DNA of 64,000 nt from Desulfosporosinus sp. Sb-LF. Its GTDB lineage: Bacteria; Bacillota; Desulfitobacteriia; Desulfitobacteriales; Desulfitobacteriaceae. The notes under the pieces were generated by a model. The model did no database searches. It was not told where the DNA came from and worked only from the letters and a program-made list of their open reading frames with translations. The position numbers and the translations under genes are program-made. Shown here one piece after another: positions 6,763 through 8,994 of this stretch; position 1 is the stretch's first letter, and each line of letters starts with the position of its first letter. The stretch lies in assembly GCF_004766055.1 (NCBI RefSeq), contig NZ_SPQR01000001.1, forward strand, positions 62,001-126,000, written 5' to 3'.

Positions 6763-6902
6763 AAAGATGCACCTCATCCTTAAAAATTTGCCCATTGAAT
6801 ACTACTGTTAATAATGCACCTAAAAACCGCCTCCCCCAAACTCTGAACTGAACCCTGTCCAACGGACAGTATTAAAAAGGCCTATCGTAGAATTTCATTG
6901 AT

Positions 6903-7759
6903 TTACGCAATCTGGCACCGCTTTTCGAGCGGTGTCAGTTTCGTTTTGAGCTGAATACGTTCATGGTTGTAGAAATAAATATAATCATTAATTAGTTGTC
7001 GGGCCTCATCAAAGGTTTTTGGCTTGTGTTTATAGATACACTCTGATTTGAGAATACCGAAGAAATTTTCCGCTATTGCGTTATCATAACAATTCCCTTT
7101 TCTTGACATTGAAGGTATTATACCGTACTCTTTGGTTAGGTTGAAATACCCGGTTGAAGTGTATTGAAACCCTTGGTCACTGTGGAGTTGCAGCTCTTCG
7201 GTGACCCCTTCTTTTTGTATAGCCGCTTAACAGTATTAAGTACGAGATTAACAGTTTGCTCTGTGCCTACCTTATGTGCAATTATGCTTTCGTCAAATAG
7301 ATCACGGATCATGGACAGATAAAGAGTCCCTTGACCAGTATGAATATAGGAGATATCGGTAACCCATTTTTGATTAGGTTTAGCAGCCTTAAACTCTCGA
7401 TTTAGAAGGTTCTCGTACTTATGTAGTTGCTCACCCATTCGTTTATATTTTTTGCGTCGTCGTATTTCAGCCAATAATCCATATTTATTCATGATTCGCA
7501 ATATGGCTTTGTGGTTAACCAATAGCTGCTTCTTTCGATGCAACCATATCTTCACTCGTCGATAGCCGTATGTTTTACCTGTACGGTCCTGGCACTCCTG
7601 TATCATTTGTGCCAAGGGTTCATCTTTGTCAGGTTTATCAATTCTCTTGCAGAAATCGTAATATCCGCTACGGGATACCGCAAAAAACTTACACATGGCC
7701 GTTATTGAATAATAATCTCTGTGACGGTATATTGCTAAATAGTTTACTGATGGACTCAC
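6903..7759 (-). pseudogene. IS3-family transposase orfB (DDE integrase), frameshifted
   Basis: Two minus-strand frames, 7136-7759 and the one ending at 6903, together encode a complete IS150-type integrase core. The first frame has the HTH_21-like N-terminus and the first catalytic Asp in W-V-T-D-I-S-Y. The second carries S-D-Q-G with the second Asp, and the Glu of F-F-G-I-L-K-S-E 35 residues on. Reading is lost near 7212-7216, where an A5 run on the coding strand appears to be one A short. The GTG start overlaps the orfA stop, so coupled or frameshifted translation would be expected in an intact copy. A sequencing error in the homopolymer is the alternative. Confidence 0.85.
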
Positions 7760-8073
7760 CTCCTTCCAGCGATTTGAAGAAAAGAACGCAGAAGTTCATT
7801 CTCCATTTTTAACCGCTTAATCTCGTTGTCTTTTTCCTGATCGGTTGTTAAACTTGTTCCTTTCCTTGGTCTTCCTTTTGGTCGTATTACGATTCCCGCC
7901 TCTAGGGACCGTTGCTTTCGATTGTGTCTATTCACTAGACTTTTAACGGCCTTAGTATTTCTCAAGTTGAAGTATTCAGCAATTTCACGATTGGTCATTC
8001 CATTTTCCTTCATTTGAAGAACTTCTTTAATAATGCTTTCCCCGAAATGTTTCATTCCTCGTTTTCCTGACAT
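7756..8073 (-). CDS. IS3-family transposase orfA (DNA-binding helix-turn-helix)
   Basis: A 105-aa protein with an N-terminal helix-turn-helix (about 10-45, with N-R-E-I-A-E-Y-F), a basic middle and a C-terminal leucine-rich coiled coil ending R-S-F-L-Q-I-A-G-R-R. This is the usual OrfA of IS150-type elements, which recognises the terminal repeats and joins OrfB. An AGGAGG site lies 7 bases upstream of the ATG but falls inside a hairpin at the element's left end. The frame is intact. Confidence 0.85.
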   Translation of the reverse strand: MSGKRGMKHFGESIIKEVLQMKENGMTNREIAEYFNLRNTKAVKSLVNRHNRKQRSLEAGIVIRPKGRPRKGTSLTTDQEKDNEIKRLKMENELLRSFLQIAGRR

Positions 8074-8078
8074 AACAA

Positions 8079-8127
8079 ACCTCCTATTGCAGATTTCTAA
8101 TTCTACAATAGGAGGTCTTTTTCTTTC
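8079..8127. promoter_or_regulatory. Hairpin at the IS end: hides the orfA ribosome site and resembles a plus-strand terminator
   Basis: Bases 8079-8089 and 8106-8116 form an 11-bp perfect stem (CCTCCTATTG with CAATAGGAGG). On the minus strand the AGGAGG of orfA lies within the stem when transcription enters from outside the element, which would block translation. On the plus strand the stem is followed by a T-rich run (8116-8126), so it also looks like a terminator facing sigK. Confidence 0.6.
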
Positions 8128-8250
8128 AATGTCCGGATTTAGGATTTAGATCATCACTCTGGGGCAGGCGGTTTTTTAAATAATGTGGATAAGCAAAATC
8201 TCCCCCTCTTAAGCATAGGTATTAAAATAACGTGTGAAAGGGGTGGAGAA

Positions 8251-8994
8251 ATGTTCGCGGAACTGTTCTTTGTCAGTATGGCACTCTCCGTTCTTAAGGG
8301 AGTTTCTTTATTAGTTTCGTATATCAATAATAATGCCTTCCCCCAGCCCTTAAATGAGAAGGAGGAAGCGCGTTATTTACGAATCCTGAGTGAAAGCAAA
8401 ACAGAGCCCTTTACCTTAACCCGTGAGGTTGAGCAAGCGCGCAATACGTTAGTGGAGCACAATCTGCGGTTGGTGGCTCATCTAGTGAAGAAATTTGACG
8501 GAACAGGGGAAGATGGGGACGACTTAATTTCGATTGGTACAATTGGTTTAATTAAGGGAATTAATACGTTTGATCCGGGGAAAGGGACGAAGCTTGCCAC
8601 TTACGCGGCTCGTTGTATAGAAAATGAAATTCTAATGCATTTGCGGTCACTGAAGAAGTCGCGCGGCGAAGTTTCTATTTATGATCCGATTGGAATGGAC
8701 AAAGAAGGTAATGAGATCTCGCTTATTGATGTCTTGGGTTCAAATGAGGAGGATATTTCCTTGAGGGTTGAAAATGAATCTGAGCAAAAGGCTTTACTTG
8801 AGCTTGTGAAGAAGCTCACTGGAAGGGAAAAAATGGTGCTTCAAATGCGTTATGGATTAATGAACAGTCCGAAAAGGACACAACGGGAGATTGCCAAGGC
8901 CTTGGATATTTCACGATCGTATGTTTCTCGCATCGAGAAGAAAGCTATCCAAAAATTAATGGAAGAGATGGGGAAGATTGATCCAAATAAATGA
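8251..8994 (+). CDS. sigK: RNA polymerase sporulation sigma factor SigK
   Basis: A 247-aa sigma-70 family protein. It begins with a hydrophobic pro-sequence (F-F-V-S-M-A-L-S) typical of pro-sigma-K. Region 2 follows, with D-L-I-S-I-G-T-I-G-L-I-K and Y-A-A-R-C-I-E-N-E-I at about 90-125, and a region 4 helix-turn-helix at about 205-230. Sigma-K drives late mother-cell gene expression. ATG 8251 is chosen because GGGGTGGAG lies just upstream; a longer frame from 8185 has no such site. The gene is uninterrupted, with no skin-type element. Only about 73 bp separate the terminator remnant from the start, so the promoter must be short or lie beyond the IS. Confidence 0.9.
   Translation: MFAELFFVSMALSVLKGVSLLVSYINNNAFPQPLNEKEEARYLRILSESKTEPFTLTREVEQARNTLVEHNLRLVAHLVKKFDGTGEDGDDLISIGTIGLIKGINTFDPGKGTKLATYAARCIENEILMHLRSLKKSRGEVSIYDPIGMDKEGNEISLIDVLGSNEEDISLRVENESEQKALLELVKKLTGREKMVLQMRYGLMNSPKRTQREIAKALDISRSYVSRIEKKAIQKLMEEMGKIDPNK

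Follow-up and report, generated by a model that had tools for sequence, protein, structure and literature searches.

An IS3-family insertion sequence in the loop of a predicted transcription terminator, and the preference of its relatives for hairpin loops

How does an insertion sequence (IS) come to lie exactly in the loop of a terminator, and was the hairpin or something else the reason that it landed there? This question is raised by a 64,000-nucleotide stretch of the Desulfosporosinus sp. Sb-LF genome (hereafter the window), in which an IS3-family element of 1313 bp occupies positions 6844–8156, minus strand. The explanation that I consider very probable is that an IS with TGAACTG-type ends entered the loop of a pre-existing terminator because its transposase lineage prefers hairpin loops; the preference of the window element itself is read from relatives, most of them about 40% identical to it.

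The element is flanked on both sides by CTC. To its left lies an A tract followed by a GC-rich arm, AAAAACCGCCTCCCCCA (6822–6838, plus strand), identified from the sequence, the empty-site fold and the orthologous hairpins of relatives; the loop AACTC (6839–6843) comes next, with CTC at 6841–6843 as the first copy of the target duplication. The second CTC is at 8157–8159, and is followed by the right arm TGGGGCAGGCGGTTTTT (8160–8176) and the T run (T8177), which together span 8160–8177 on the plus strand. Removal of the IS and one CTC yields AAAAACCGCCTCCCCCA-AACTC-TGGGGCAGGCGGTTTTTT, a stem closed by a loop of 5 nt and followed by a T run. An earlier note on this DNA had placed the element exactly in a terminator loop with both arms intact, and the coordinates agree. 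It had also described a 17-bp stem, a 5-base loop and a T run; the loop, the T run and the strong fold stand, while in the stem 16 of the 17 positions are paired, the exception being a C-C mismatch (C6833/C8165). For the rebuilt empty site the folding energy is -25.9 kcal/mol, compared to a mean of -10.6 for 200 dinucleotide shuffles, none of which matched it (z = -6.0). With its GC-rich stem, short loop, T run and conserved position, the hairpin under the IS is predicted to be an intrinsic terminator, and the note's identification of the target as rho-independent is upheld by both the empty-site fold and the orthologous hairpins with their T runs.

These orthologues were anchored on the downstream gene (8185–8994, plus strand), which encodes a sigma-70-family sigma factor (Pfam Sigma70_r2 and Sigma70_r4) that I take to be sigma-K-like, and which was matched in 53 of 61 genomes. 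Relatives do not lack the stem, a possibility that the earlier note had raised: at least eight genomes of the genus that have no IS at this locus carry hairpin and T run in the same place (L035, L037, L039, L042, L043, L046, L048 and L053), directly before a conserved GTGGATAAGC stretch, 5' of the same sigma factor gene. Even the stem core AAAACCGCCTCCC..GGCGGTTTT is shared in L046 and L048, and the orthologous stems vary in sequence between genomes, as is usual for terminators. Other relatives have no hairpin at the orthologous position of the sigma-gene-anchored locus, and the terminator is common there, not universal. At L033 the orthologous terminator was examined for a second insertion, and no IS was found. 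Since the IS-free loci carry hairpin and T run in the same place, the hairpin at the insertion site was there before the IS: it is an ancestral terminator that the IS did not create.

The inserted element has the hallmarks of the IS3 family. On the minus strand, orfA (7756–8073; 105 aa, with homologues in L008 (50%) and L060 (59%)) overlaps by GTGA with orfB (6903–7759), the DDE transposase gene, which combines an HTH_21 domain with a retroviral-type integrase core (Pfam HTH_21, rve and rve_2/rve_3; PF13276, PF00665, PF13333 and PF13683, with PF00665 exactly at the cut-off). The termini, TGATGATCTAAATCC at 8156 and TGAACTGAACCC at 6844, are of the TG...CA type (TGATGATC.../...GTTCA) and form imperfect inverted repeats, which match each other loosely in the window IS and better in L008; the CTC duplication falls in the 3–5 bp class. 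As orfB is broken by a frameshift near 7205–7210 into the ORFs 7136–7759 and 6903–7109, this copy is probably inactive now, barring a sequencing error behind the frameshift. At the orfA/orfB junction (about 7756–7772, minus strand), a AAGGAGGTGA stretch noticed by eye is common to three relatives, including L060 and L008, and suggests internal ribosome binding or frameshift stimulation, not the classic A6G slip alone. A leader hairpin (8064–8117, minus strand; -26.1 kcal/mol, z -8.5) takes the AGGAGG ribosome-binding site of orfA into its stem. Similar leader hairpins are present in L060, L008 and L261, where the paired sequence differs (for example CCCCCTGATGTAG..CTACATCAGGGGG in L261). This arrangement suggests that the transposase may be shielded from read-through transcripts, as would suit an element at home in terminators.

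In order to see where related elements insert, relatives were drawn from bacterial genomes, 398 genomes of the phylum, viral contigs, extra copies, plasmids and E. coli. Inverted repeats and target duplications served to define the element ends, blind to hairpins; four loci were added later via stated end sequences, two of them (L142, L170) with the same ends as from the automatic search and two (L001, L060) with ends set by eye. Sites were scored by the energy of a hairpin spanning the junction, an earlier requirement for an empty loop having been dropped as too strict. By this measure 88% of 58 distinct sites have a hairpin of -10 kcal/mol or better across the junction; for 3480 points drawn at random from the loci concerned, the figure is 30% (p = 3e-22). 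Loops have a median length of 5 nt, with a median distance of 1 nt between junction and loop centre. The earlier note had considered that other copies might lie at random sites; they are instead found in hairpin loops, mostly terminator-like ones, far above controls. The elements entered the loops of hairpins that were already there, left both arms intact and usually duplicated 3–5 bp, as illustrated (duplication in brackets) by L073, AAAAAAACCGCTG[CAAGC]AGCGGTTTTTT, whose duplication might equally be assigned to the stem, by L074, AAAAAGCTCTCGC[ACCC]GCGAGAGCTTTT, and by L115, AAAAAAACACCTT[ATA]CAGGTGTTTTTTT. Hairpins are absent from about 10% of the TGAACTG-type sites (L147, L253, L181, L085 and L087). 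A 48%-identical relative with other ends (GGTACTGCCCCC), at L260 (G096:C1:2390556-2395371), appears to interrupt a terminator (GATGCACC..GGTGCATTTTC) in its left arm, not in its loop.

Could the element recognize a terminator motif, that is A tract, GC arm and T tract, by its primary sequence, the loop position being secondary? Such tracts are indeed frequent: a T tract accompanies 58% of the hairpin sites and 8% of the control hairpins, and an A tract 66% and 10%, respectively. However, the actinobacterial sites L080, L116 and L117 are strong hairpins without T runs, and T/A tracts are similarly missing from further hairpins of the actinobacterial, Pseudomonas and palindromic-unit kinds (L082, L084, L081 and L274). 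Duplications and stems vary from site to site, the former without any consensus. I therefore consider targeting by primary sequence unlikely; because duplications and stem sequences differ, shape and not sequence is what the sites have in common.

A second possibility is that the IS inserts anywhere, and that copies persist at harmless intergenic spots such as terminators. The sites do avoid genes, 15 of 57 falling within ORFs of 100 aa or longer as opposed to 65% of random points, and this part of the earlier note's description of the terminator as a safe site between operons holds. The site is less safe for the terminator, whose arms the IS now sets 1.3 kb apart, and the insertion should for this reason disrupt or weaken it. 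Selection against gene disruption, however, cannot put the junction about 1 nt from the loop centre, and within these same regions the signal is gone 10–20 nt away: the median energy, -19.2 kcal/mol at the junction, weakens to -13 for a shift of 6 nt, to between -7 and -8 for 10 nt, and to roughly -4 to -5 for 20–40 nt (individually, -5.3 at +20, -3.8 at -20, and -4.5 at +40 and -30). Moreover, in the same search, no loop placement was found for IS3 elements with other ends (L118/L122, L128/L132/L135/L137, L127, L156 and L129/L130). These account for the bulk of a branch of the orfB tree, with 11 of 12 rows negative in what is a quick tree with no bootstrap. Hairpin and no-hairpin labels cluster roughly on it, the hard threshold scoring several clear hairpins as "no" (L166, L172, L252, L278 and L265). 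The comparison with non-targeting elements is based on hand-checked ones, the automatic "other IS3" control having contained hairpin-targeting relatives and misjudged ends. Given how sharp the junction-shift profile is, persistence at harmless spots is largely refuted as an explanation, and I regard it as very unlikely.

Coincidence in the window case alone would draw on the fact that the host genome (30 contigs) has one full copy of the IS, otherwise only short leader remnants, a number too small for statistics. Yet the nearest relative with both ends, a Pelosinus propionicus copy, lies in the loop of AAAAATAGACTGCC..GGGCAGTCTATTTTTT, with no clear duplication, and most of the wider group behaves alike, leaving coincidence a very slim chance. 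This Pelosinus copy has 80% amino acid identity to the window IS over its best segment. Short remnants, often one end plus the leader hairpin (G000:C4:50746-50822, G000:C26:2984-3182, L010, L013, L014 and L015), are present in several genomes of the host genus; where a copy in the genus is truncated, the single flank that it retains sometimes resembles one arm of a terminator, such as AAAAAGCCGCTCGA (L003) and GAAAGGCCCTCCCCC (L015).

In E. coli, ISEcB1 lies in the terminator between the convergent yfbM and nuoN genes (duplication CATG), as well as in the sseA terminator (duplication ATTT). Of 5426 E. coli genomes, 4266 have the joined yfbM/nuoN site in unbroken form (coverage of 80% or more), its stem having been read in one of these (L280). 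That the IS itself supplies the hairpin, as extended inverted repeats, might be thought from the arms abutting the element directly, but the stem is different at every site and empty alleles carry it, both at the window orthologues and at yfbM/nuoN, so that this has practically no chance of being correct. In Klebsiella aerogenes (L289, LR134127.1), an ISEcB1-like element adjoins nuoN with a different upstream gene and one terminator arm only, which may reflect a separate insertion into the same terminator and a later rearrangement.

Loop targeting by a preference of the transposase lineage thus being the favoured account, the following course of events can be proposed. The terminator that was hit would be a bidirectional rho-independent one, between a pilus-type operon and the sigma factor gene, and insertion would have produced the 3-bp duplication. 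The lineage would favour the loops of hairpin-forming inverted repeats: mostly intrinsic terminators in Bacillota, terminators and palindromic units in enterobacteria, and GC-rich hairpins without T runs in Actinomycetota. The complex of transposase and transposon circle may read the hairpin, as an extruded cruciform, a single-stranded loop or a two-fold symmetric duplex; since the target sequences are unrelated, I infer that this shape, and not the base sequence, is recognized.

Targeting of REP sequences and other extragenic palindromes by IS1397, ISKpn1 and REP-associated IS has been reviewed (PMC1525189). IS1397 and ISKpn1 resemble the window group in their IS3-family DDE transposase and in their insertion in the loop of a palindrome. 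The link that the earlier note drew to them is strengthened by an annotated IS1397 copy, whose end reads TGAACTGCACCCC and which interrupts the loop of a hairpin resembling a palindromic unit (GCCGGATAAGACGCCA..GCTTACGTCGCATCCGGC), in agreement with what is published for IS1397 (PMC1525189). Loop insertion, retention of both arms and a short duplication are common to the window IS and the wider set. The target differs: for IS1397 and ISKpn1 it is reported to be a repeated, species-specific REP, whereas the window IS has entered an ordinary terminator, not a REP or palindromic-unit repeat, and its group uses unrelated single-copy terminators in many phyla. IS1397 is also longer (∼1432 bp, compared to 1313 bp), and the window transposase is distant from it, its orfB falling outside the clade of IS1397 and ISEcB1 in the quick orfB tree; a relation of the window IS to the IS150 group is suggested by similarity to IS1397 together with the literature classification. 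ISEcB1 (E. coli B, E. coli C and BL21) is alike in its TGAACTG ends, 3–5 bp duplication and use of terminator loops, and no description of its target choice was found in the open-access literature. ISPsy8 and ISPsy9 likewise target extragenic palindromes, but are REP-specific as reported (PMC1525189); the single ISPsy9 site read here is a weak hairpin.

IS1272 and TnSha1 belong to the IS1182 family, which is unrelated. They target terminator hairpins without sequence specificity (PMC4923244), but differ in making a blunt cut in the stem that deletes part of the hairpin, with no duplication (PMC4923244). A limited search of the open-access literature turned up no account of IS3 elements aimed at the loops of terminators, and I make no claim of priority.

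The window IS adds a member to the loop-of-palindrome targeting known from IS1397 and ISKpn1, and a broader version of it that is aimed at terminators. Whether an IS3 clade across Bacillota, Actinomycetota and Pseudomonadota reads shape alone, entering the loop of any strong enough hairpin, with terminators as its main niche and the REP targeting of IS1397/ISKpn1 as a special case, seems to me evenly balanced. On such a reading these special cases become a general rule, one that can be put to the test in laboratory strains of E. coli B that harbour ISEcB1, and maps of terminators would predict insertion sites genome-wide. The finding suggests a route by which IS may spread while rarely breaking genes, and implies that such elements alter transcription read-through between adjacent operons. 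It also makes the extrusion of terminator hairpins in vivo accessible to experiment.
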